Below are positions 4,617 through 39,966 of a DNA stretch of 40,477 nt, piece by piece. The notes under the pieces were generated by a model. It saw only the letters and a list, made by a program, of their open reading frames with translations. It was not told the origin of the DNA and ran no database searches. Origin of the DNA: Gemmatimonadota bacterium (GTDB lineage Bacteria; Gemmatimonadota; Gemmatimonadetes; Gemmatimonadales; Gemmatimonadaceae). The stretch is from positions 1 through 40,477 of the forward strand of contig JAPLKT010000037.1 in the NCBI GenBank assembly GCA_026387895.1, in the 5' to 3' direction. The position numbers were made by a program, and so were the translations under genes. Numbering within the stretch: position 1 is the stretch's first letter; the number at the start of each line of letters is the position of its first letter.

Positions 4617-5171
4617 ATGCCTGCCATTCAGTTGTGGACGATCGCGGATCTCGACACCCTGCCGTATGACGGTGTGCGGTACGAGATCCTCGATGGGGAG
4701 CTCATCGTGAACCCGCCGCCGGGGTTGCCGCATCAGGATGCGGGCGGGCAGCTGTACATGATGCTGTATCAGTACTGTGAGGCGCAGGGCGCGGGGTACG
4801 CATTCGTCTCGCCCGTCGGCCTCCCGTTCGACCAGCACAACTACGTCGAGCCCGACGTGATCGTCTCGGAACGTCGCGACGGCAAGCGGCCGCGCGAGCT
4901 CGCGCCGGCGCGCACGCTGCTGGTGGTCGAGGTGATCTCGCCGAGTTCTGGGTCTCGCGACCGCGGGCGGAAGCGGCGGCTCTACATGGAAGGCGGGGTC
5001 GCCGAGTATTGGATCGTGGATGTGGCGAAGGGGTGCGTGGAACGCTGGTTCCCCGCGAGCGCGGCTCCTGAGCTGCTCACCGAGTCGATCGAGTGGCGCG
5101 TGAAGCCTGGCGCGGAGCCGTTTCAGCTCGACCTGATTGCGTTCTTCGAGAGGATGCAGGACGACGCCTGA
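4617..5171 (+). CDS. Uma2 family endonuclease (DUF820)
   Basis: The product is 184 aa from the ATG at 4617. It carries the hallmarks of the Uma2/DUF820 family, a restriction-endonuclease-like PD-(D/E)xK fold: YEILDGELIV near the N-terminus, HQDAGGQL, YVEPDVIVSE (the PD aspartate), LVVEVISPSS (the acidic residue of the E-x-x motif), RKRRLYMEGGVAEYWIVD and a short C-terminal strand. Such genes occur in many copies in cyanobacteria and also in other phyla; their biological role is largely unknown, and some are linked to mobile DNA or defence. Here it stands alone, divergent from argF and 64 bases before a dehydratase-like gene in the same direction. No partner suggesting a defence system is visible. 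Confidence 0.88.
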   Translation: MPAIQLWTIADLDTLPYDGVRYEILDGELIVNPPPGLPHQDAGGQLYMMLYQYCEAQGAGYAFVSPVGLPFDQHNYVEPDVIVSERRDGKRPRELAPARTLLVVEVISPSSGSRDRGRKRRLYMEGGVAEYWIVDVAKGCVERWFPASAAPELLTESIEWRVKPGAEPFQLDLIAFFERMQDDA

Positions 5172-5235
5172 CGGCGTGTTTCACACGCCACCATCTCCGC
5201 TGGAGCCCTGCGCATACGCGCAGTAGGTTTCGGGT

Positions 5236-6204
5236 ATGCCCTCAACTATCAAGTACCAAGACGTCCTCGCCGCGCGCGAGCGGATCCGTCCGCATCTCAC
5301 GCCAACGCCGCTGCGCCATTACCCCCTGCTCGATGCAGCGATCGGGCACGGGATCCGCGTGCTGGTCAAGCACGAGAACCATCACCCCACGCAGAGCTTC
5401 AAGATTCGCAATGGACTCAGCGCGATTCTCGGCCTGAGCGACGCTGAACGTGCGCGCGGGGTGATTGGGGCCAGCACCGGGAACCATGGACTCGGACTCG
5501 CCTATGCGGGCGGGCTCACCGGGACGAAGGTCACCATCTGCGTGCCCGAGGGGAACAATCCTGGCAAGAACGCGGCGATCCGTGCGCTCGGCGCAGAACT
5601 CTTGGAGATTGGCGCGTCGTACGATCAAACGATCCTCGGCTGCGCCCGCGTACGTGAGGAGCGTGGACTCACCTTGGTGCACAGCACCAACAACGCTCAT
5701 GTGATTGCCGGCGCTGGGACCATGACGATGGAGTTGCTCGAGCAAGACCCCGCGCTCGACGCCGTGATTATTGCGCTCGGCGGCGGTTCGCAGGCGGTTG
5801 GCGCGATTACGGTAGCGCGCGAGCTGAAGCCCTCGCTGGGGGTGTACGCGGTGGGCGCGGCCAGTGCGTCCGCGCAGTTCGAGAGTTGGCAGCGTGGGGA
5901 GCGTCTGTCCGGGTTGCCCGTCGCGACCTTTGCCGAGGGGATTGCGACGGGGTCGGCGTACGAGATGACCTTTGATGCGCTCAAGGAGGGACTCGCCGGA
6001 TTCGTGACCGTGAGCGAGGAGGCGATGTATCAGGCCGTCCGCGCGCTGATCAACCTCACGCACAATATTCCCGAGGGCGCAGGCGCTGCTGGTTTTGCCG
6101 GACTGAAGCTGCTGGCGCCGCAGCTCGCGGGGAAGCGCGTCGCGATCATCATGTGCGGCGGGAATCTCGCGGAACGCGATCTCAAGAAGGCGCTCGCCGA
6201 CTGA
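5236..6204 (+). CDS. Threonine/serine dehydratase-like PLP enzyme
   Basis: The 322-aa product is a fold-type II PLP enzyme of the threonine dehydratase group. The PLP lysine is in PTQSFKIRN (Lys56). The substrate loop STGNHG follows at about residue 82, and the glycine-rich phosphate-binding loop is GGGS at about 182. It is shorter than biosynthetic IlvA and lacks the C-terminal ACT-like regulatory domain, matching catabolic threonine dehydratase, serine racemase or hydroxyaspartate ammonia-lyase sizes. It should act in the cytoplasm and remove ammonia from a hydroxy-amino acid; the exact substrate cannot be read from sequence. It follows the Uma2 gene by 64 bases and ends at a strong hairpin shared with the convergent metalloprotease gene. 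Confidence 0.88.
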   Translation: MPSTIKYQDVLAARERIRPHLTPTPLRHYPLLDAAIGHGIRVLVKHENHHPTQSFKIRNGLSAILGLSDAERARGVIGASTGNHGLGLAYAGGLTGTKVTICVPEGNNPGKNAAIRALGAELLEIGASYDQTILGCARVREERGLTLVHSTNNAHVIAGAGTMTMELLEQDPALDAVIIALGGGSQAVGAITVARELKPSLGVYAVGAASASAQFESWQRGERLSGLPVATFAEGIATGSAYEMTFDALKEGLAGFVTVSEEAMYQAVRALINLTHNIPEGAGAAGFAGLKLLAPQLAGKRVAIIMCGGNLAERDLKKALAD

Positions 6205-6209
6205 GGCGC

Positions 6210-6233
6210 GCAGGCGCTCGCGCAGGCGCTCGC
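6210..6233. repeat. Two tandem 12-bp repeats after the dehydratase gene
   Basis: Two perfect head-to-tail copies of GCAGGCGCTCGC lie 6 bases past the stop codon and just before the terminator hairpin. A related GGCGCTCGCC occurs inside the last codons of the gene, so the repeat may have arisen by slippage. Confidence 0.7.
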
Positions 6234-6249
6234 GTGTGAGATGAAACAC

Positions 6250-6284
6250 GAAGGGGCGGGCCGCAGTACGCGGCCCGCCCCTTC
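6250..6284. terminator. Bidirectional hairpin terminator between convergent genes
   Basis: A perfect 15-bp GC-rich stem (6250-6264 with 6270-6284) has a 5-base loop AGTAC. It sits 46 bases after the dehydratase stop and 16 bases after the metalloprotease stop (leftward). Neither flank has a long T-run, so efficiency is uncertain, but the placement is typical. Confidence 0.8.
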
Positions 6285-6299
6285 GTCGCGCCAACACAC

Positions 6300-8930
6300 T
6301 CAATCTTTCTTATCGAAGATCTTCGCGATCTGATCGCGCGCGTCCTGCAGGTGCGCGCGCGTGGTGCGATCGCTCGTCTTGCCAATGGCCGCGGCAAGTT
6401 CCTTGTCGAGCAGGTGCATTTCGTCCTTGAGGATCGGACGGAAGTCGGCAGTGTTGACCGCCGGACCACCGAAACCACCCGCGGCCGATGCGGCCGGCTT
6501 GATCTTGCCCGCCATCGCGTCGAGGTAGGTGGTCTGGAGGCGACGACGATAGGCGTCGATCGACGCGCCGCTGTAGATCTCCTTCCAGAGGCCACGACGC
6601 AAATCGGTGAGCATCTCACCGGCGGTGTAGACCTCCGCCTTGTTGCCCTGGACTGTTTCGTACTCGACCATGCGCGACAGACGGATGTTGCTCACCAACG
6701 AGCTCAGCGCGCGCGACTGCGCGCCGGTGATCCGGCTCACGCTCCCTTCCGACTCAATCTTGCGAAGGATCGTGTTGTCGATCAGGTACTTGGGGGTCGT
6801 GAAGACCTCGTCATTGAGGAACTTCACGGCGTCCTGCTGGCGCTTCTTGCTGACCGGCGTCCAGACAGGGCCGCTCTGTCCCGCGTTCTTCTCCTGCTTG
6901 TCCATCCCGCCAACGATGCGAGCAACATGCCCCGCCTCGGTCGCCCACTGACCGACGACGGCGCCGTAGGTGGCACGGAGCAGCGAGTAATCGGCGGTCT
7001 TGTCGAGCTCAGAGGCGGGCTCCACAAGCTTCATAATGCGGGCGAGGTTCTTGAAGCCATACGTGGTGGCTTTCACTGCGTCGGCATCGCCGATCGCTTC
7101 CGACTGTTCGGCCGGATCCGCGCCACCGGCGCCCGCGTCGCTCGCAAAGCGATACCACGGAATCGTGTCCTGCATACGCGCCCACTTATCGAGCGTCGGG
7201 AGCTCCGATTCTGGGGTCTTGGCGCCAGCGATCGGCGAGTAGCCCCACATCACGGCGAACTTGTCGTACGGTCCGACGCGCGGAGTCAGATCTTCGATTG
7301 CGATGCCATCTTCTGGCTGCGCCACGTAGTTGAAGCGGGCGTAGTCCATGATCGACGGCGAGTGCCCCATCTTCGCGACCCAGGTCTTAGACCGCACACT
7401 GTCGAAGGGATACATGGAGCTTCCCTTGAAGTTGTGCGGGAAGCCCAGCGTGTGGCCGACTTCATGCGCCGCAACAAACTGGATCAGCCGCCCCATAAGA
7501 TCATCCGGGAACGGGAACTTCTGGGCACGCGTATCGAGGTGTCCGACCTGCGTGAAGTACCAGTCACGCTGGAGGTCCTGAATGTTGTGGTACATCTGCA
7601 CGTCGGCGTCGAGAATCTCGCCGCTGCGCGGGTCTACGGTGCTCGGTCCGACGGCGTTCGCCACCGGACTCGGGAGCCAGCGGACCATCGCGACGGTGGC
7701 GTCCTCACCGGAGAAGTCCGGAGTGTTCGGCGCATCGGCAGCCACAATGCCCTTATAGAAACCCGCCTGCTCAAAGGCCGGCTGCCATTCTTCAATGGCC
7801 TTCTTGATCCACGGCTGCAACCACTTGGGTGTCGCCGGGTCGACGTAGTAGGTGATCGGCTTCTTGGGGACGCACAGATTGCCGACCTTCTGGTCCGAGC
7901 ACTCCAAACGCCAGCGCGAGATATAGTTGCGGGCCAGCACACGCTGCGCGGGCGACCCGAAATCCGTGGCGCTCGGTCCAAAGTACCCAACGCGCGCGTC
8001 GCGTAGACGCGGCTGCATCGGCACATCCGGCAAGCGCACGATCGAGAAGGTGTAGGCCTCGGTCGTGGGCTGCGGCTGCGCGGCGGGGAAGCCCGGCGGC
8101 GTGGGTGCGCCACCGCCAGCCTGCGGCGTGAAGGTCTGCGACGCGGTGATGTTCACATTGCGCGAGAACACCGCCCACTTGTCGATGAACGAACGGGTCG
8201 CGTCCACCGTGGCACGACGCCCACCAGCCGTGAACTCGGGGAGTCCACCGGTGAACATGCGCGTCACTTCAATGACCGTGGCGCTGTCCTTGCCGTAGCT
8301 CTCCACGTTGAACGCGGCGATGATCGGGAAGAACTGGATCAAATTCATCGCGCGCTGCGTCGAGAGCGTGGTGTCGGTCGCGACGTTGCGGTAGTTGATG
8401 TTCCGAACGAGAATCCGGTTGTCACGGCGCTCGAAGCGAATCACCTCATTGGGGCCAAGCGTGCCGTTGATGCCGATGCCCGCTGGGGTTCCTGCGAGGA
8501 CGGTCGTGATCAGGAAATCCTTCCCCAACTCAGCGGCCGGAATCTCAAAGTAGAGACGAGTCCCAATCTGGTGCACACCGAACACGCCCGTCTTGGTCTT
8601 GGCGCGCGGGGTGATGACGGTCGCATAGGGACGCGGGACCGGATCAGCGCCGGCAGCGGCACCACCGGGGCCACCCGGGCCACCAGCACCTGGTGCGCCT
8701 GGAGCGCCTGGAGCGCCTGGAGCGCCTGGAGCGCCTGGAGCGCCTGGAGCACTTGGCGCGCCGGGAGCGCCGGGAGCGGCCGGTGCCGCTGGCGCATTGG
8801 CCATCGGGGCAGCCGCCGGAGCAGCTGCTGGAGCGGCCGCAGGCGAGGGCGCGGGGGTTGGCGCGGGAGTCGGTTGGCACGCGACCAGCAGAACACCGGC
8901 GGCGGCGAGAGTAACGGGGAGTCGACGCAT
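6300..8930 (-). CDS. Zinc-dependent metalloprotease lipoprotein (DUF5117/DUF5118 type)
   Basis: The ATG at 8930 gives an 876-aa product with a lipoprotein signal ending LLVAC (Cys18); an ATG at 8987 would add 19 residues before the signal and is less likely. Next comes a Pro/Ala-rich linker, PTPAP then AAAP repeats and collagen-like GAP repeats (about residues 20-100). The main body has a metzincin-like zinc site HEVGHTLGFPHN (His489, Glu490, His493, His499), followed by a Met-turn candidate SIMDYARFN. Such large exported zinc proteases with DUF5117/5118 regions are frequent in Gemmatimonadota, Acidobacteria and Bacteroidetes; substrates are unknown. A paralog lies at 28236-30731. The protein is probably anchored in the outer membrane with the linker as a flexible stalk. 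Confidence 0.88.
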   Translation of the reverse strand: MRRLPVTLAAAGVLLVACQPTPAPTPAPSPAAAPAAAPAAAPMANAPAAPAAPGAPGAPSAPGAPGAPGAPGAPGAPGAPGAGGPGGPGGAAAGADPVPRPYATVITPRAKTKTGVFGVHQIGTRLYFEIPAAELGKDFLITTVLAGTPAGIGINGTLGPNEVIRFERRDNRILVRNINYRNVATDTTLSTQRAMNLIQFFPIIAAFNVESYGKDSATVIEVTRMFTGGLPEFTAGGRRATVDATRSFIDKWAVFSRNVNITASQTFTPQAGGGAPTPPGFPAAQPQPTTEAYTFSIVRLPDVPMQPRLRDARVGYFGPSATDFGSPAQRVLARNYISRWRLECSDQKVGNLCVPKKPITYYVDPATPKWLQPWIKKAIEEWQPAFEQAGFYKGIVAADAPNTPDFSGEDATVAMVRWLPSPVANAVGPSTVDPRSGEILDADVQMYHNIQDLQRDWYFTQVGHLDTRAQKFPFPDDLMGRLIQFVAAHEVGHTLGFPHNFKGSSMYPFDSVRSKTWVAKMGHSPSIMDYARFNYVAQPEDGIAIEDLTPRVGPYDKFAVMWGYSPIAGAKTPESELPTLDKWARMQDTIPWYRFASDAGAGGADPAEQSEAIGDADAVKATTYGFKNLARIMKLVEPASELDKTADYSLLRATYGAVVGQWATEAGHVARIVGGMDKQEKNAGQSGPVWTPVSKKRQQDAVKFLNDEVFTTPKYLIDNTILRKIESEGSVSRITGAQSRALSSLVSNIRLSRMVEYETVQGNKAEVYTAGEMLTDLRRGLWKEIYSGASIDAYRRRLQTTYLDAMAGKIKPAASAAGGFGGPAVNTADFRPILKDEMHLLDKELAAAIGKTSDRTTRAHLQDARDQIAKIFDKKD
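8695..8748 (-). repeat. Six tandem 9-bp repeats encoding a collagen-like GAP tract
   Basis: Six perfect copies of GCGCCTGGA (plus strand) are flanked by imperfect copies. On the minus strand each unit encodes one Gly-Ala-Pro triplet in the linker of the metalloprotease. The unit length is a multiple of three, so copy-number change would lengthen or shorten the stalk without a frameshift. Confidence 0.92.
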
Positions 8931-32181: not shown

Positions 32182-32586
32182 ATGTCACGGGAATCTGGAC
32201 GCGAGCCGCTGCGCGCGGTGCGCATCGACAAATGGCTCTGGGCGGCGCGGTTTTTCAAGACGCGCTCGATTGCCGTGGAGGCGATCGCCGGCGGGAAAAT
32301 CACGATCAACGGCGACCGGCCGAAGCCAGCGCGCGAGGTGAAAGTTGGCGACGAGCTCTGGCTACGCCTTGGCCCGTATGAACACACGGTGATCGTGAGG
32401 GCCGTGAGCGAGGCCCGAGGACCGGCGTCGCAGGCGGCGCTCCTCTACGAGGAAACGCCCGAGTCCAAGGCGGCGCGTGAGCGCCATGCGTGGACGCTGA
32501 AACATGCAGCGCCGGTGATGGATCCCGGCGAGGGGCGGCCGACTAAAAAGGACCGCCGCGACCTGGAGCGCTCGCGCGGCTGGTAG
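32182..32586 (+). CDS. hslR: S4-domain RNA-binding protein, Hsp15-like
   Basis: The 134-aa product from ATG 32182 begins with the S4 fold: VRIDKWLWAARFFKTRSIAVEAIAGGKITINGDRPKPAREVKVGDELWL, the signature of Hsp15 (HslR). In E. coli this protein binds free 50S subunits that still carry a nascent peptidyl-tRNA and helps recycle them. The C-terminus is charged (PTKKDRRDLERSRGW), also typical. The in-frame ATG at 32107 would overlap the promoter region of the divergent lipoprotein gene; GGGG just before 32182 supports the shorter form. Together with arfB 4 kb away there are two ribosome-rescue functions in the window, but they are not in one operon. Confidence 0.92.
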   Translation: MSRESGREPLRAVRIDKWLWAARFFKTRSIAVEAIAGGKITINGDRPKPAREVKVGDELWLRLGPYEHTVIVRAVSEARGPASQAALLYEETPESKAARERHAWTLKHAAPVMDPGEGRPTKKDRRDLERSRGW

Positions 32587-32599
32587 CGCGCGAGGACGT

Positions 32600-34132
32600 T
32601 CACCCCTTCACGAGCGGAATCCAGAGCCGAATCGCCGCGCCGGTCGCGTGCGCGGTGTCGACCGAGAGATCGCCCCCAATGGACTTCGCATGGGCGCGCA
32701 CCCAGGCGAGCCCCAATCCGCCACGGCCACCGTCGTCGTCCGTGATGCGTGGCACGAAGAGCGTCGCGCGTTCCGCTGCGGTCACGGGCGCGCCACTGTC
32801 GATGACGGCAAGACAGGCGTACTCCCCCGCCGTGACGTACGGAATCGTCATGTCATCGTGCAGGCCCACCCCAGTTAAGGTCTGACGAAGCAACTGCAAC
32901 GCCACCGACCCGCGCGGCGGGGTGTGCTCGCGGGCTTGCTCACACAGTTCCACCACCATGCGTTCGAGCGCTTCCTCGTCGACACGCACCAACAATCCCA
33001 CGTCGGACAACGACATGCGAAGTTGGCGCTCCGCGAAGACTGTATCGAGAATCGGCTGCATGCGCTCAAGAAACTGACTCATTTCCACCAGCGTCGGCGG
33101 GGCCGGGTCGGTGCGTGCGAACTCGAGCAGTCGGTTGAGCTTGCGCGACAATCGCTCGCTCGCCACCGCCAGTGGACCGTACTTGTCGCGCCCGTGTGGG
33201 GTGTGTCGGAGTTCAGCGGCAACGATGCTGGTAGCTTGCAAGACGTTCTTGAGATCGTGGGCCACGGTCACGGCGAACTGTCCAGCATCGGCGTCCGCAC
33301 GTCGCCCGGCAGCCAGCCGTTCTACCAGCACGGCACGCGCCGCTGCTACGTCGAAATCCGACCGCGAGAGGTGCAAGCAGAGTCCGACAACTGCGACACC
33401 GATACAACCATTAAAGGTCATCACGAGCAGGAGCGACTTGAACTGCTCGCTGGCACCCACGAAACTCTGCATCGGGGACGCGAGCGCATTAAAGGGCATT
33501 ATGAGGTACAGAGGCCGCATCAGTGACATGGCAATCAGCACCCCAACCATGCCATTGGTGGTACGGCGGCGGGGATGATCCCGCGGCACCAACGTCCAAA
33601 GCATTGCCGCCGCCGCTAACTGCGCGAGCACCTTGGTGAAAATCGCGGGGAGGATTAGCCGCGACACGTCCAGGGCCTCGGTGGGTTGCACGGTCCAGAA
33701 CGTGAGCAATGCCACCATCACCACGGCCCCGCCGACCCAGATACGCGGACGCAAGTGCGGGTAGCGTTGGCCCGACAGCTCCTCAGCGAGTGCGACCATG
33801 GCCTGGAACGCGAGGACCCAGAACACCAGCGTCACCACGAACGAGGGCAGGATAATCCAGGTGATGCGTGGATCGGTCGAGGCGATTTCGACACCGACGA
33901 GCGCGAAGGTCGCACAGCTTTGCCACAGCACGGCATTCAGAATGGCGCTCACCAGCGACTGCCGGTACACCTGTTCGATGCCGCGCACCATCGCCCATCC
34001 CCAGAGGTTCATCATGAGGACGGTCCCCCGCACCACGAAGGCAAACACCGTGGGGTCGAGGCCAGTGAGCAGCGCTGGCGAGACATTCCCGTTGGCGGCC
34101 TGCAGAGCCAAGAACCCGGAGGTAGTGATCAC
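32600..34132 (-). CDS. HK-D: 7TM histidine kinase-like protein with damaged ATPase domain
   Basis: The 510-aa product starts at GTG 34132, overlapping the HK-C stop (GTGA). Residues 25-255 contain seven hydrophobic segments. The DHp helix keeps the phospho-acceptor His292 in TVAHDLKNVLQAT. The ATP-binding domain is degenerate: the N-box Asn is Gln399 (ELCEQAREHTP), and G1 reads DSGAP (Asp445, Gly447, but Pro instead of the last Gly). The G2-like GRGGLGLAW (469-477) and the final RLWIP strand remain. It may bind ATP poorly and be phosphorylated in trans by a partner. It is the last gene of the operon and is convergent with hslR (13 bases). An active but divergent kinase cannot be excluded, because some kinases tolerate changes here. 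Confidence 0.85.
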   Translation of the reverse strand: MITTSGFLALQAANGNVSPALLTGLDPTVFAFVVRGTVLMMNLWGWAMVRGIEQVYRQSLVSAILNAVLWQSCATFALVGVEIASTDPRITWIILPSFVVTLVFWVLAFQAMVALAEELSGQRYPHLRPRIWVGGAVVMVALLTFWTVQPTEALDVSRLILPAIFTKVLAQLAAAAMLWTLVPRDHPRRRTTNGMVGVLIAMSLMRPLYLIMPFNALASPMQSFVGASEQFKSLLLVMTFNGCIGVAVVGLCLHLSRSDFDVAAARAVLVERLAAGRRADADAGQFAVTVAHDLKNVLQATSIVAAELRHTPHGRDKYGPLAVASERLSRKLNRLLEFARTDPAPPTLVEMSQFLERMQPILDTVFAERQLRMSLSDVGLLVRVDEEALERMVVELCEQAREHTPPRGSVALQLLRQTLTGVGLHDDMTIPYVTAGEYACLAVIDSGAPVTAAERATLFVPRITDDDGGRGGLGLAWVRAHAKSIGGDLSVDTAHATGAAIRLWIPLVKG

Positions 34133-35592
34133 CGCAACACTCCTTCGCGGAAACCTGCGGTCGGGGCGTGTACGGTGGAGGGAATCCACATACTGAACGT
34201 TGCGCCCTGACCGACGGTCGACTCGCAGGTGATTTCCCCGCCAATCGAACGCAGGAAGGTCCGAATGGAGGTCAATCCAAGTCCTGTCCCTTTGGTCCCC
34301 TTCGTGGTGAAGTACGGTTCGAACACGCGGCTCATCACCTCGTCGGGAATTCCTGACCCCGTGTCTCTCACCCGCACCACCACGTAGTCCCCGTCCGCTA
34401 AGCCACGGTCGCGCAGCGCTGGCGACAGGGCGCTCGTCGCGGCCTGAATCTGGATCAGGGCTCCAAGCGGGGAGGCGTCCCGCGCGTTGAGCACCAAGTT
34501 GGTGACCGCCCGCTCCAGCTCAGCTGGCGGGCAATCGGCGCGCAGGATCACATCGTCGACATTCAACCGAACGGACTGCAACGGCGACAACCGCTTGAGG
34601 ACGGGCAACGCGGTGCGCAAAACAGTCGCCACATCAACCGTGGGATTCTCGGCACCCGGCTTCGCCCGGACCTCAGTCAATCGCTGCAGGAGGACGGCGC
34701 CCTGCTCAGCCGCGAGCTCGAGCACTTCAGCCTCGTGTTGTGTGTCTGGCGATAACCGCGCTTGCGCGGCGAACTCGTTCACTGTGACAACGGTCGCGCT
34801 GATTTCCGAAGCGAGCCCCCGTGCTAAGGCCCCCAATGCCTCGCTGCGCTGCTGACGCGCCGCGCCCGCTTCTCGCCGCCACGCTGCGTCGAACCGCTCG
34901 GCGACCACCCGGCGCTCGACCAATAAGACGGCCCAGAAGTCCAGCGTCAGCATAACGGTCGACAAGATCAGCGTGCCAATCAGCAGGAGTGCCTGACGGA
35001 TGGGAGAAACCCCGTGCTGCACCGAGATGCCACCCGTGGCCCACCACACGAGCAGCGGACGACAGGCTTGCACCGCAACCCCCGTATTAATCAGCATCAT
35101 CGCGCGACGCCCCTCACCCACCAGCCCCGGCGCCCGTACCAGCATGCTGAGCAGTATGAGCATGCAACCCGTAATGAAGAGCCGAGAAATGGCTTCCGAC
35201 TGCGCCGGGAATGACAGCACGAGGGTGAGACCACAGAGCAATCCGACCGCTCCCCCAATGAGCGAGGGCTTCAGATTCAGCGGCTCGTCCACGCCCGGAG
35301 CGCGCAGACTCGCAATCAGCTGCGTCCAGAGCGGGACGATCGAGGCGACCAGAGCAGTAAAGACCGGAACGGTGATCCTCATCCATACGGTGTGCCCGGT
35401 GGTCATGGCCAGCGACCTTCCGAACTGAGCGACGGCCGAGGCCGAGGCCACCCACCACACCACGGCGAGGAGGCGCGAGAATAATGTCCCGCTGAAGCGT
35501 GCAAACAGGGTGAACGCTACCGCACCCACGCAGAACTGGGCGACCACCAGCAGGTTTACGAGTGCGACAACCCAGGCGGAACTTGTGCTCAT
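34129..35592 (-). CDS. HK-C: 7TM histidine kinase-like protein lacking the acceptor His
   Basis: The 487-aa product from ATG 35592 overlaps the HK-B stop (ATGA). Seven hydrophobic segments span about residues 8-226. At the DHp site the sequence is GALARGLASEISATV: Ser262 stands where the His of an H-E-I-N motif belongs. The C-terminal ATPase is complete: N-box VTNLVLNARDASP (Asn369), G1 VRDTGSGIP (Asp410), F-box VFEPYFTT and G2 KGTGLGLTSIRTF, then GGEITCEST and a terminal MWIP. So it should bind ATP but cannot phosphorylate its own His. It may phosphorylate HK-B or HK-D in a mixed dimer. A mis-sequenced His codon (CAC/CAT to a Ser codon needs two changes) is unlikely. Confidence 0.87.
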   Translation of the reverse strand: MSTSSAWVVALVNLLVVAQFCVGAVAFTLFARFSGTLFSRLLAVVWWVASASAVAQFGRSLAMTTGHTVWMRITVPVFTALVASIVPLWTQLIASLRAPGVDEPLNLKPSLIGGAVGLLCGLTLVLSFPAQSEAISRLFITGCMLILLSMLVRAPGLVGEGRRAMMLINTGVAVQACRPLLVWWATGGISVQHGVSPIRQALLLIGTLILSTVMLTLDFWAVLLVERRVVAERFDAAWRREAGAARQQRSEALGALARGLASEISATVVTVNEFAAQARLSPDTQHEAEVLELAAEQGAVLLQRLTEVRAKPGAENPTVDVATVLRTALPVLKRLSPLQSVRLNVDDVILRADCPPAELERAVTNLVLNARDASPLGALIQIQAATSALSPALRDRGLADGDYVVVRVRDTGSGIPDEVMSRVFEPYFTTKGTKGTGLGLTSIRTFLRSIGGEITCESTVGQGATFSMWIPSTVHAPTAGFREGVLR

Positions 35593-37139
35593 ATGGAGAC
35601 CGTCTCCGCACAGGGCACCCACAGCGTTACCGTAGTCCCTTGGCCCACCGTGCTCGTGATGGTCAGGTCACCACCGGTCACGCGGAGTTGTCCACGTGCA
35701 TTGATGAGGCCGAACCCCGCGTCGCGCGTGGGGCGCTTGGTGAAGGCCGCATCAAAGACCACGGACAGTTCCTCGGCGGACATCCCAACTCCTCGGTCGG
35801 AAATCGTGACCGCACCGTAATCGCCCGGCCGAAGGAATGGCGAGTCACCGGCGCCCACCGCGACGCGGTCGCTTCGGATGAGAATGGTGCTCTCCGTAGG
35901 CGAAAAATCTCGCGCGTTCGTGAGCACCTCCACCAAGGCGTCTTTGAGCACCTGTGGTGGCACGCGCACCAAGACGCTTCGAACACGCGACTCCTCAACG
36001 AGGTCGTGCTGCGCCAGGATTCCTTCCATCACCACGCGGAATCGTTGCAGAAATAAGGGTAGGTCGAGGTACGCTTGCTGCGATGGCCCGGGATTCGCGA
36101 ACGACGCCAGTCGCGCAATACGCTCTTCGAGGTAGTCGTTCAACTGCCGCACCGCCGTCACGCTGGTCAAGCTGGTGGAGCTGGTGGAGCTGGTGGAGCT
36201 GGTGGCCAGGTCGGCCAACGCACTGTCCAGCATGCGCACCCCCAGCATGAGGTTCCGCAACTCATGACTGAGCCCGATCACGTATTGTCCGAGGCGCGCA
36301 TCACTCGACCGTGCGTCGCGCAGCGACTCGGTCACACGGAGTTGTTCCTGGTCGAGCTTCAGCTTTTCGTAGGGGAAGCTCGCCACCACGAGCAGAAAGG
36401 AGAGGAGCAGCGCCGCGGCAATAAGAAAGATCCACTCGGCCTGCAGCAACTGCGCGAGCCCCGCCATCGGGGTATCCAGCGGCGCCATATTGAACGTCAC
36501 CTTCGATCGCGTGACCTCGGCCACGAGCGATAGCACCTGCGCTATGAGGAACATGCGCAAGGTGCGCGCGTGGATGCTGGCCCGTTCACGCCACTGGAAT
36601 ACGGTCCAAATCGCGTGCGACGCTACCACTACATTGCAGGCCGCAACCAGCCACGTATTCGGAGGGAGTCCCACCGATGGAAAGGCTTGGCGAGCGAGCA
36701 TCACCGCCGCGGCGAGCGCCACACCAAGCGTGACCGCACGCCGCACAGCGGCGGCCTCGACGCGCGGCGCTTCGCGGTCCACGAAACAGACCATGACAGT
36801 TCGCACGACAGGCACAGAGGCCACCATCATCGCAATCGTGAGCAAGGTGGCGAGGGCGGTCACCTCGGGTCCCACCGACCCGGTTGTGTCTTCGACATTG
36901 AGCAGCAACCCTCCGAGCTGCCGGACGCTCCGCAACGCGATGTAGAGCAAGAGATACTGCGAAAAATATGCTCCCGAAATAGACGAGAAACGGCGACTCG
37001 CGATTATCGCGAGCCCAATCACGGCACCATACACGAGCGCGGTGATCGCGTATTTTCCGGTGGCGTCGACCGTGAAGTGCCGCCAGGCCGGGTCGCTCGG
37101 CCCGATTTCCTGCAGATACCAAAGGGCGGCCGCGATCAT
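35589..37139 (-). CDS. HK-B: complete 7TM sensor histidine kinase
   Basis: The 516-aa product from ATG 37139 overlaps the HK-A stop (ATGA). Seven hydrophobic segments lie between about residues 29 and 254, followed by a signalling helix (EKLKLDQEQLRVTESLRDA). All kinase motifs are present: His292 in GLSHELRNLMLG, N-box LVEVLTNARDFSP (Asn408), G1 SDRGVGM (Asp448), and G2 RDAGFGLINARGQL. A tandem-repeat Ser/Thr tract (TSSTSSTSSTS, about residues 313-324) sits in the hairpin loop between the two DHp helices. It is the only full kinase in the four-gene set, so probably the source of phosphoryl groups for the receiver encoded upstream. The signal it senses is unknown. Confidence 0.9.
   Translation of the reverse strand: MIAAALWYLQEIGPSDPAWRHFTVDATGKYAITALVYGAVIGLAIIASRRFSSISGAYFSQYLLLYIALRSVRQLGGLLLNVEDTTGSVGPEVTALATLLTIAMMVASVPVVRTVMVCFVDREAPRVEAAAVRRAVTLGVALAAAVMLARQAFPSVGLPPNTWLVAACNVVVASHAIWTVFQWRERASIHARTLRMFLIAQVLSLVAEVTRSKVTFNMAPLDTPMAGLAQLLQAEWIFLIAAALLLSFLLVVASFPYEKLKLDQEQLRVTESLRDARSSDARLGQYVIGLSHELRNLMLGVRMLDSALADLATSSTSSTSSTSLTSVTAVRQLNDYLEERIARLASFANPGPSQQAYLDLPLFLQRFRVVMEGILAQHDLVEESRVRSVLVRVPPQVLKDALVEVLTNARDFSPTESTILIRSDRVAVGAGDSPFLRPGDYGAVTISDRGVGMSAEELSVVFDAAFTKRPTRDAGFGLINARGQLRVTGGDLTITSTVGQGTTVTLWVPCAETVSI
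36163..36207 (-). repeat. Five tandem 9-bp units encoding a Ser-Ser-Thr loop in HK-B
   Basis: Units of CTGGTGGAG (plus strand), three perfect (36172-36198) with one divergent copy on each side. Each encodes three residues of the Ser/Thr run between DHp helix 1 and helix 2. Confidence 0.9.
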
Positions 37140-38647
37140 TGGACTGACTCCGCCGCCGGACGGCCGTCGCTGATGCGCGACGCGCGCGCACTATCTGGAA
37201 TCCAGAGATGAATCGTCAATCGTCCCGACGGCGCATCGGACTCGGCAACAGCATCACCGCCCAGCAACCGCGCAAAGCGGCGCAACGAGGCGAGTCCTCC
37301 ATCGCCGCGGCCCCCGCCCGGTGCCTCAATCGCACCCTCGAAGGGGTTCGCCATTCCTCCACGGGCGTCATGTGGCGCGTTCCCCTGCACCGACAATCGG
37401 GCGTAATCATCCGCCGAGAGCAGCCCCGACGACGTCGACAGCCGTTGGCTCGACAACTGCACCGTGACCACCGTCTCCTGCTCCGGCGACATGTCGTGGG
37501 CCGGCCTCGCACTGAGAAACAGGATCAGGTTCATGACCGCACGCGAGAACTCTTCGGGCGGGCATTCGCAGTGGTGGAGGTGGGCGCTCGGTGTCCAGCG
37601 GATATCGACCGACGGTAACATCCGCTGGACGCGCGGCAGCGCGACTTCCACCAACGTGCCGATCTCGAGCCGATGCCCATCGACCGCTTGGATGTCAGGC
37701 TCGCGCAACATCGAGAGCAAATCCTGCCCCTTCGCCTGCACCGCGTCGATGATCGCTAACTCCGCGTGCCGACCGGGCTGTGCCCCAATCTCGAGTCGCA
37801 CTCGATCGAAGGATTCGACGAGCGAGGCCACATTCCGCGCGATGCCGCGGGCCAAATACCCCGCTGTTTCGTGGCGGCGCTGCCGCGCGGCCGCGTTTTC
37901 GGCGGTACGTAATCGGGCGGCTTGGGTGTTGAGGGCCGCGCGCTCCATGCCGAGCACGGCGATCAACTGCGTATACCCGATGGCCAACATCGTGAGCAGC
38001 GCCGCCGCAAACGATAGCAGCTGCCGGCTTTGGCTAGGACCAGGATATCCATCCCACGAGCCCACGATTGCCACCTGTTGCAATGGACGGCTCGCCAAGA
38101 GAATCATGCCGAGCACCAAGGCCCGATTCACTTCGCGATTCCTGACTTGACCGCGCCCCGCAATCGTGAAGTACACTGCGCAGGCGCTCGATATCAGAAT
38201 CATCGCGACGATAGGCGCAAAAAACCCGTGCGTCAAGTTGACGTCAGTGCGGGCCTCCCGGACCGCATAGAGCCTCGAGAGCACCGAGATCACGAGCGCG
38301 ACTGGAATCACGATCGCGAAGCGGCGGCGCAGCGCCGGAGTCGTCACCGGTTCCTCCGCCACTTCTTGAAAGGCGGCGGAAACCAGCATGGTCGCATTGA
38401 GGAGACCGACGTAGTACAGCACGCTCGCGAGCCAAATCAGCGGTTGACTGCTGCGGTACGCCGCGACAACGCCCAGCCCACCCGCGACAGCAGCGAGTGA
38501 GGCATTGGTCCAGAAGAGCGCGACAATACGGACGAGTCGCTGCTGAAACACCCGAGTGCCAATCCACGACCCAGCAGCGATGCCAATAATGACTGTGGCA
38601 ATCAGCGACTGCATGAGCAGTCGGTAGGGAACTTGATCGAGATGCAC
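37136..38647 (-). CDS. HK-A: 7TM histidine kinase-like pseudokinase
   Basis: The 503-aa product starts at GTG 38647 (an ATG 11 codons later is possible). Seven hydrophobic segments lie between about residues 12 and 233, followed by a helix (ERAALNTQAARLRTAENAA). The fold of a DHp-ATPase module is still traceable by alignment with HK-C, but key residues are gone: Arg271 in ARGIARNVASLV replaces the His; Phe377 in VMNLILFLSARP replaces the N-box Asn; the G1 D-x-G-x-G reads GNAPH (422-426); the G2 loop is only partly kept (GRGDGGLASLRRF). The last strand LTIHLWIP is normal. It is therefore a predicted pseudokinase, perhaps a pure sensor or regulatory subunit. It starts 29 bases after the receiver gene. 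Confidence 0.85.
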   Translation of the reverse strand: MHLDQVPYRLLMQSLIATVIIGIAAGSWIGTRVFQQRLVRIVALFWTNASLAAVAGGLGVVAAYRSSQPLIWLASVLYYVGLLNATMLVSAAFQEVAEEPVTTPALRRRFAIVIPVALVISVLSRLYAVREARTDVNLTHGFFAPIVAMILISSACAVYFTIAGRGQVRNREVNRALVLGMILLASRPLQQVAIVGSWDGYPGPSQSRQLLSFAAALLTMLAIGYTQLIAVLGMERAALNTQAARLRTAENAAARQRRHETAGYLARGIARNVASLVESFDRVRLEIGAQPGRHAELAIIDAVQAKGQDLLSMLREPDIQAVDGHRLEIGTLVEVALPRVQRMLPSVDIRWTPSAHLHHCECPPEEFSRAVMNLILFLSARPAHDMSPEQETVVTVQLSSQRLSTSSGLLSADDYARLSVQGNAPHDARGGMANPFEGAIEAPGGGRGDGGLASLRRFARLLGGDAVAESDAPSGRLTIHLWIPDSARASRISDGRPAAESVQ

Positions 38648-38676
38648 GAGGACGACCGCCGCGGAACGCGGGGAGT

Positions 38677-39063
38677 CTACATTCGTTCCCCGAGCACCTG
38701 GCGCACGGCGCTCAGCAACTGTGCTTCGGAGAAGGGCTTGAGCAAGGTGGCGTTGGCGCCCACCTGCGCGGCAACGGAGAGGTAGAGATCAGCCGACCCC
38801 ATGCCGCCACCGGACATGGCAATGATCGGGAGATTCGGGTGGGTGCGGCGCAGCTCGATAATGGTCTCAACCCCCTCACGGTCTGGCATCACCAAATCCG
38901 TCAGCACAAGATCAAAGCGCCCCGACTGCATGGCCTCAATCGCGACACGCCCGTCGTTGACGGCGAGCACGTCAAAGCCTGCGCGTTCGAGCACGAGCTC
39001 CAGCGACTTGAGTACCGCAGGTTCGTCGTCGACGAGGAGTACGCTGTACTGAGAATTTTCCAT
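38677..39063 (-). CDS. Stand-alone CheY-like response regulator receiver
   Basis: The 128-aa product from ATG 39063 is a single REC domain: acidic pocket VDDEP (Asp12-Asp13), phospho-acceptor Asp56 in LVLTDLVMPD, switch Ser84 in IIAMSGGG, and Lys109 in LLKPFS. No DNA-binding or enzymatic output domain follows, so it acts through protein contacts or a phosphorelay like CheY or Spo0F. It is the first gene of the operon with four histidine-kinase-like genes downstream (29-base gap, then 4-base overlaps). The upstream in-frame extension to 39123 has no family similarity. The 207-base region before it should hold the operon promoter. Confidence 0.92.
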   Translation of the reverse strand: MENSQYSVLLVDDEPAVLKSLELVLERAGFDVLAVNDGRVAIEAMQSGRFDLVLTDLVMPDREGVETIIELRRTHPNLPIIAMSGGGMGSADLYLSVAAQVGANATLLKPFSEAQLLSAVRQVLGERM

Positions 39064-39150
39064 GGTATCCCAGATGGGGGTATCAGGGGCATGATCGCCG
39101 TGCAACCACGACAGCGCGACCATGCATAAATGTCACGATATTCATCAGTC

Positions 39151-39169
39151 CTCGCGCTGATTACGCGAG
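39151..39169. promoter_or_regulatory. Inverted repeat upstream of the receiver/kinase operon
   Basis: CTCGCG, 7-base spacer, CGCGAG forms a dyad about 90 bases before the receiver ATG, between the hydrolase stop and the receiver start. Just upstream (leftward sense) lies an AT-rich TTTTTATAAATTGTG stretch (39187-39201) that could contain a -10 element. It is either an operator or a weak hairpin ending hydrolase transcription; I cannot tell which. Confidence 0.35.
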
Positions 39170-39270
39170 CCCACTCCTGCGGCTTTCACAATTTATAAAA
39201 AGATTGGGCGTACCGCTATAGGTGCGCGCAGGATAGGCATGGCACCACGTCGGAAATCTGAACGGAAGTA

Positions 39271-39966
39271 TTACCCCGAAGTTGGCTCAGCCAATCGACC
39301 CAACGTTTTTGTGTCTAATCTGTGCCCACCTCCGAACGTTTCGAAGATGTACGGAAAGTGTACAGCATCGAGACGCTCACGTTCGCGCGCGACCGTTGCA
39401 GGGGTTGCGAATCGATCGCGGGATCCCGCAACCAGCACCGTGTTGGGGCGACGCAGGGGAGTGGCAGCGCTCGCGATGTCGAGTTCGGGCGGCAGGGCAC
39501 AGCCCCAGAGGATGTGCCGAGCAACGGGGACCGAGCCGCTGGCCACCCAGCGTGCCGAGGTCGCGCCGCCCTGCGAGAAGCCGAGGACAGTGACGGCGGG
39601 AGTGGCGCCGTTGAGCTGGGTGAGGAGGTGTGCGTGGAGTCCGTTGAGGTAGGTGAGGTAGTCGTGGATTTCGTCGTCTCTCGCTTCTTTGGTCATCCAG
39701 CTCGCGCCGATCGGGACCTCTTTGCCGATGCGATCTTCGAGTCGGCCGGTGTAGTGTCGGGAGAGGGCTTCGGGGGCGACGATCAAGCGGGTGCCGTCGT
39801 CGAGGCAGCGAAAGTTCTCGAGGAACGGGGCGGCGAGTTCCCCGTAGCCGTGGAGGACAATCCAGAGCTCGCGGATTGCGGAGCGCGCGGATGGTACTTC
39901 TGGTTCGGTGGGCCCTAGGAGGGCGATCCGGGCGGTCCGCGGTGTGGTGAAGGTGTCGAGGCGCAT
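39271..39966 (-). CDS. Alpha/beta hydrolase, phospholipase/carboxylesterase type
   Basis: The 231-aa product has the core of the phospholipase/carboxylesterase family: the oxyanion-side HGYGE (about residue 39), the nucleophile elbow GFSQGG (Ser about 131), the acid in AGSRDRF (Asp about 184) and the catalytic His in FGGGHRLD (about 217). No signal peptide is visible, so it is cytoplasmic. It would hydrolyse short-chain or thio-esters; the substrate cannot be deduced. The ATG at 39966 fits the family's N-terminus. It is divergent from the small membrane protein gene and ends about 200 bases before the receiver gene; no functional link to the kinases is apparent. Confidence 0.87.
   Translation of the reverse strand: MRLDTFTTPRTARIALLGPTEPEVPSARSAIRELWIVLHGYGELAAPFLENFRCLDDGTRLIVAPEALSRHYTGRLEDRIGKEVPIGASWMTKEARDDEIHDYLTYLNGLHAHLLTQLNGATPAVTVLGFSQGGATSARWVASGSVPVARHILWGCALPPELDIASAATPLRRPNTVLVAGSRDRFATPATVARERERLDAVHFPYIFETFGGGHRLDTKTLGRLAEPTSG

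Follow-up and report, generated by a model that had tools for sequence, protein, structure and literature searches.

A five-gene operon encoding a standalone receiver and four histidine-kinase-like membrane proteins (HK-A to HK-D) with complementary losses of catalytic motifs was identified in a 40,477-nucleotide stretch of Gemmatimonadaceae DNA (hereafter the window). Judged from these motifs, the proteins probably form heteromeric kinases, in which the His-less subunits HK-A and HK-C together with the His-bearing partners HK-B and HK-D phosphorylate one receiver. All five genes are located on the minus strand (39063-32600). The CheY/DivK-like receiver (128 aa, 38677-39063) is separated by a gap of 29 bases from HK-A (503 aa, GTG start, 37136-38647), which is followed by HK-B (516 aa, 35589-37139), HK-C (487 aa, 34129-35592) and HK-D (510 aa, GTG start, 32600-34132). 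Successive HK genes overlap by 4 bases each, with the sequence ATGA between HK-A and HK-B (37136-37139) and between HK-B and HK-C (35589-35592), and GTGA between HK-C and HK-D (34129-34132). The initial annotation, which had described a receiver followed by four 7TM kinase-like genes with these overlaps, was confirmed from the sequence. A sigma-70-like promoter was looked for upstream of the receiver gene and was not found.

Each HK protein comprises about 500 residues and combines a hydrophobic half with a DHp-CA kinase module, which is degenerate in HK-A. Seven membrane helices had been predicted for all four proteins; hydropathy analysis revealed seven segments in HK-A, HK-C and HK-D, but only six clear ones in HK-B. 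AlphaFold2 models of HK-A and HK-C (pLDDT 55 and 61), from which only the secondary structure and the fold of the cytoplasmic part were taken, placed seven helices ahead of the DHp helices with low confidence, and the loop charges of both proteins fit an N-terminus-out orientation. The Pfam domain HATPase_c was found in HK-B, HK-C and HK-D. No match was obtained in the Pfam scan of HK-A, which was recognised by alignment, a weak NCBIfam kinase match (E 1.9e-4) and the fold of its model. The models of HK-C and HK-A matched DHp-CA structures with modest confidence, those of RetS and DivL being among the many kinases matched by HK-A, in keeping with the DHp-CA fold of orthodox sensor kinases (HisKA plus HATPase_c). 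Neither in HK-A to HK-D (E up to 1) nor in seven relatives (E up to 10) was a Pfam match obtained for the membrane domain, and by this criterion they were not assigned to the known 7TM receptor families (7TMR-DISM, 5TMR_LYT, MASE). The LytS-type 7TM kinase BtsS likewise has seven TM helices, an N-terminus outside and a C-terminal kinase (PMC10653868). However, it contains 5TMR_LYT and GAF domains, and Pfam 5TMR_LYT is absent in HK-A to HK-D and the scanned relatives. Between the two DHp helices of HK-B lies a Ser/Thr run, TSSTSSTSSTSLTS, which originates from a short repeat (window 36165-36204); in the other species that carries the operon, this run in the DHp hairpin is about 6 residues shorter.

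Catalytic motifs were read from an alignment of HK-A to HK-D with single-gene relatives. In HK-A, Arg271 replaces the histidine, and neither the G1 Asp nor the second Asn of the N-box is retained, suggesting that HK-A has no acceptor and is probably devoid of ATP use. HK-B contains His292 (SHELRN), the N-box EVLTNARD, the G1 motif DRGVG and the G2 motif AGFGL, which points to an acceptor and an ATP-binding domain that are largely kept. The earlier statement that only HK-B has all kinase motifs was nearly correct: His292, the second N-box Asn, DRGVG and GFG are in place, but the first N-box Asn is changed to Glu. HK-C, in which Ser262 replaces the histidine, harbors the most canonical ATP-binding domain of the four (NLVLNARD, DTGSGIP, GTGLGL). 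HK-D keeps His292 (AHDLKN), and its N-box (ELCEQARE) and G1 motif (DSGAPV) are degenerate, the asparagines of the N-box and a portion of G1 being lost. Compared to an orthodox kinase, the H-box histidine is present in HK-B and HK-D and missing from HK-A and HK-C, while the N, G1 and G2 motifs are preserved in HK-C, largely preserved in HK-B, and lost in part in HK-D (N-box) and HK-A (N-box and G1). Acceptors in HK-B and HK-D and ATP sites in HK-B and HK-C are therefore credible predictions. By their motifs, HK-D and HK-C carry acceptor and ATP function, respectively, on separate proteins in both species, as in a split kinase; HK-B appears to keep both functions, so that the split among the four would be partial. 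The receiver retains all of its catalytic residues (D12, D13, D56, S84 and K109, read from the translation), and with acidic pocket, acceptor Asp, Thr/Ser and Lys all there it belongs to the standalone kind. Response_reg (E 2.7e-26) was the only Pfam domain above its cut-off; given the absence of an output domain, the receiver would have to act on targets elsewhere.

Two carriers of the operon are known. In a sample of 18 genomes of the genus, one further species (G015; L010) was found to harbor the cassette. There, a 308,726-base contig matches the window in all five genes, their order, the overlaps and the motif defects. A search of genome contigs gave one match, apparently contig C14 of G015, and no match was obtained in plasmids or viral contigs. 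No additional carriers were detected among 179 genomes of the family or, at a strict cut-off, among 395 sampled genomes of the phylum; in these large searches, scores were calculated for the best 3-8 candidates of each genome. The co-occurrence of all four kinase genes in conserved order, which the initial annotation had proposed as a check, was found in both carriers. True orthologues were not encountered as one or two genes with the order lost; the wider 7TM-kinase family consists mostly of single genes.

Between the two carriers, dN/dS values of 0.31 (HK-A), 0.27 (HK-B), 0.29 (HK-C) and 0.40 (HK-D) were obtained, with 95% upper limits of 0.52 or below, and all four kinases are under purifying selection. 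The receiver is 98% identical in G015 (dN/dS 0.04). The recurrence of the same genes, order, overlaps and defects in a second species, together with the low dN/dS, indicates that the operon is more than a chance arrangement. The histidine is kept in HK-B and HK-D and missing from HK-A and HK-C in both species. In the DHp domain of HK-D, only 3 of 94 residues are changed between the species (97% identity; Fisher p 5e-6 versus the rest of HK-D), whereas 26 of 160 residues are changed in its ATP domain (CA; Fisher p 0.001 for DHp versus CA). Such a tight DHp domain fits the idea that HK-D has been retained to accept phosphate and to provide a docking surface. In HK-A, the contrast between DHp and ATP domain was not significant at the protein level. 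At the N-box site, HK-D has Gln or Arg depending on the species and HK-A has Phe/Tyr, suggesting that loss of the ATP site is tolerated. The membrane halves of HK-B and HK-D are 70-75% identical and their DHp domains 91-97% (L010 versus window); the membrane halves thus diverge faster, as if ligand specificity were changing.

Comparison with genus members without the cassette delimited the inserted segment to 32587-39270. The esterase gene (39271-39966 in the window) and the S4-domain gene (stop codon at 32586) that flank it here adjoin each other directly, with unchanged gene order, in five further species of the genus, which indicates that the cassette was either acquired or built up between them as a single block. 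The base composition gave no sign of foreign origin (GC content of 63.5% in the cassette versus 64.1% in the preceding portion of the window). No direct repeats of at least 10 bases flank the insertion, and one 10-base inverted match was found in the flanks.

To understand how the four kinases are related, trees were calculated from different parts of the proteins. HK-B grouped with HK-D in the whole-protein tree (support 100/98), in the kinase-core tree (99/99) and in the core without catalytic columns (100/99.9). The corresponding values for HK-A with HK-C were 94/87, 95/90 and 95/77, and for all four together 93/95, 94/90 and 96/90. With the core without catalytic columns, groupings of HK-A with HK-B (p-AU 0.0037) and of HK-C with HK-D (p-AU 0.0016) were both rejected, while the membrane part alone neither supported nor rejected the A-C and B-D kinship. 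As the A-C support drops to 36 or 82 when HK-B or HK-D is left out and long branches are present, B-D kinship can be regarded as firm and A-C kinship as moderately supported. Given this core tree and the gene order A-B-C-D, a duplicated unit of one His-less and one His-bearing gene is suggested; in the simplest history, a duplication would have given rise to a His-less and a His-bearing gene, and this pair would then have been duplicated. Such a history speaks more for pairs than for a complex in which four subunits combine freely.

About 30 full-length relatives were found in the Gemmatimonadaceae, nearly all of them single genes with a canonical H-box. These single-gene 7TM kinases are homologous to HK-A to HK-D over their full length and share their layout and size, but differ in being single genes with canonical histidine and N-box. 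One genome of another genus (G123; L069, G123:C13) contains an overlapping pair of 7TM kinase genes (4878-6422 and 6419-7861), in which the first member has Arg in place of the histidine and keeps the N, G1 and G2 motifs, and the second is canonical. This pair looks like a simpler, two-gene version of the cassette; a receiver related to that of the window was not found within the 14-kb stretch around it. An independent loss of the histidine in this pair was considered and dropped, as grouping with HK-A and HK-C was not rejected (p-AU 0.07). In the overlapping tandem pairs of G120 (L098, G120:C30, 5928-9079) and G122 (L097, G122:C231), both members possess the histidine. The second member of the G120/G122 pair has an odd H-box, AHDLHRRF. 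Of the 8 tandem genes, 3 encode a protein without the histidine, compared with none of the 22 single genes (Fisher p 0.014; kinship among the rows is uncorrected).

Histidine kinases dimerise through their DHp helices. For the system described here, we infer from the sequences that mixed pairs would be formed between the two subunit classes, the His-less HK-A/HK-C and the His-bearing HK-B/HK-D. The clearest case is the C-D pair, in which HK-C would use its ATP-binding domain to phosphorylate His292 of HK-D in trans. From HK-D and HK-B, the phosphate would be passed on to Asp56 of the receiver, and both may also dephosphorylate the receiver via the HE/DxxN motif. HK-A, presumably dead in both respects, may serve as an allosteric or sensing partner of HK-B, which would work with HK-A or by itself. 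Divergence among the seven-helix domains of the four proteins suggests that each would respond to its own ligand or to a separate aspect of a common one, with all signals converging on the one receiver. The C-D scheme needs trans-phosphorylation, as kinases that phosphorylate in cis would leave this pair inactive.

The initial annotation had proposed a hetero-oligomeric sensor with labour divided among its subunits. The complementary losses in both carriers, purifying selection, gene order and overlaps speak for such a division, but the tree favours pairs. A four-subunit sensor composed of two duplicated obligate 7TM hetero-pairs, with four divergent receptor domains, divided catalysis and one receiver, is conceivable, although we regard this fuller version as somewhat doubtful. 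That all four proteins instead assemble into one A-B-C-D complex is very improbable: the coupled genes and their fixed order in both carriers would suit a fixed stoichiometry, but DHp domains of known kinases form dimers and the pattern of pair duplication fits pairs.

Against the heteromeric reading, HK-B could act alone as a homodimer with HK-C as a scaffold. As an alternative, HK-B would do most of the work on the receiver as an ordinary homodimer, and HK-A, HK-C and HK-D would be accessory membrane sensors or inhibitors that titrate or lock it via DHp contacts, with no phosphate passing through HK-C or HK-D. HK-B keeps both activities by its motifs, RetS (PMC12148439) and DivL (PMC9491836) are known partners of such a kind, and the structures matched by the HK-A model include both, among many other kinases. 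Left unexplained, however, are the canonical ATP domain of HK-C without an acceptor and the acceptor of HK-D with its near-unchanged DHp domain, and we consider this explanation unlikely. Still less can be said for the degenerate copies being decaying duplicates on their way to loss, with one or two genes that matter. The cassette is rare and the ATP-binding domains are loosest in HK-A and HK-D (dN/dS 0.45 and 0.35), but all frames are intact in two species, the overlaps are preserved and the whole-gene values of HK-A and HK-D (0.31 and 0.40) have upper limits well below 1, which makes decay very improbable.

To our knowledge, only few cases of heteromeric histidine kinases have been described. 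The nearest one published is FasBC-FasA of group A Streptococcus, which consists of two co-transcribed six-TM kinases and one regulator; FasB and FasC formed a heterodimer, and not homodimers, in two-hybrid tests, FasC was proposed to be a pseudokinase and the FasB kinase domain is thought to act on His246 of FasC (PMC12675982). Compared by description, both systems have adjacent multi-TM kinases and one regulator in an operon (PMC12675982). In contrast, FasBC-FasA has two kinases with six TM segments and a regulator with a DNA-binding domain, whereas here the histidine itself is lost in two of four kinases. With no DNA-binding output domain in its receiver, the operon was not placed in the FasBCA family proper. 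The claim that no such system had been described thus stands for the operon of four such kinases, which was not found in the literature searched (mostly without subscription journals), but not for heterodimeric kinase pairs, of which FasBC-FasA is a published example (PMC12675982). What is new here would be the four kinases in one operon, the two-kinase precedent having been published.

In CheA3/CheA4-CheY6 of Rhodobacter sphaeroides, ATP use and phospho-acceptance likewise reside on separate, mutually dependent proteins (PMC3591291), but these two CheA-type proteins lack whole domains, compared with point losses here, and have no membrane sensor domain. RetS and GacS of Pseudomonas aeruginosa are membrane kinases that form a DHp-DHp heterodimer, in which RetS blocks GacS autophosphorylation (PMC12148439); here the difference is that RetS is an inhibitory partner and that the two are not tandem genes of one receptor family. 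In Caulobacter, the pseudokinase DivL tunes the real kinase CckA (PMC9491836), but the two are not a tandem gene set and DivL receives its input from a response regulator. The operon described here is a compact, testable system in which phylogeny and motif losses agree with the order and overlaps of the genes, and two-gene pairs in other genera look like simpler stages. The switch from homodimer to obligate hetero-pair, as well as the sharing of one receiver by several receptors, would thereby become testable.

The closest other receivers, with 56% identity, stand alone (L131, G006:C13, 8526-8972; also L129 and L130). In L131, receiver-GGDEF and receiver-EAL proteins are encoded next to them, which hints at a possible link between receivers of this type and c-di-GMP signalling.
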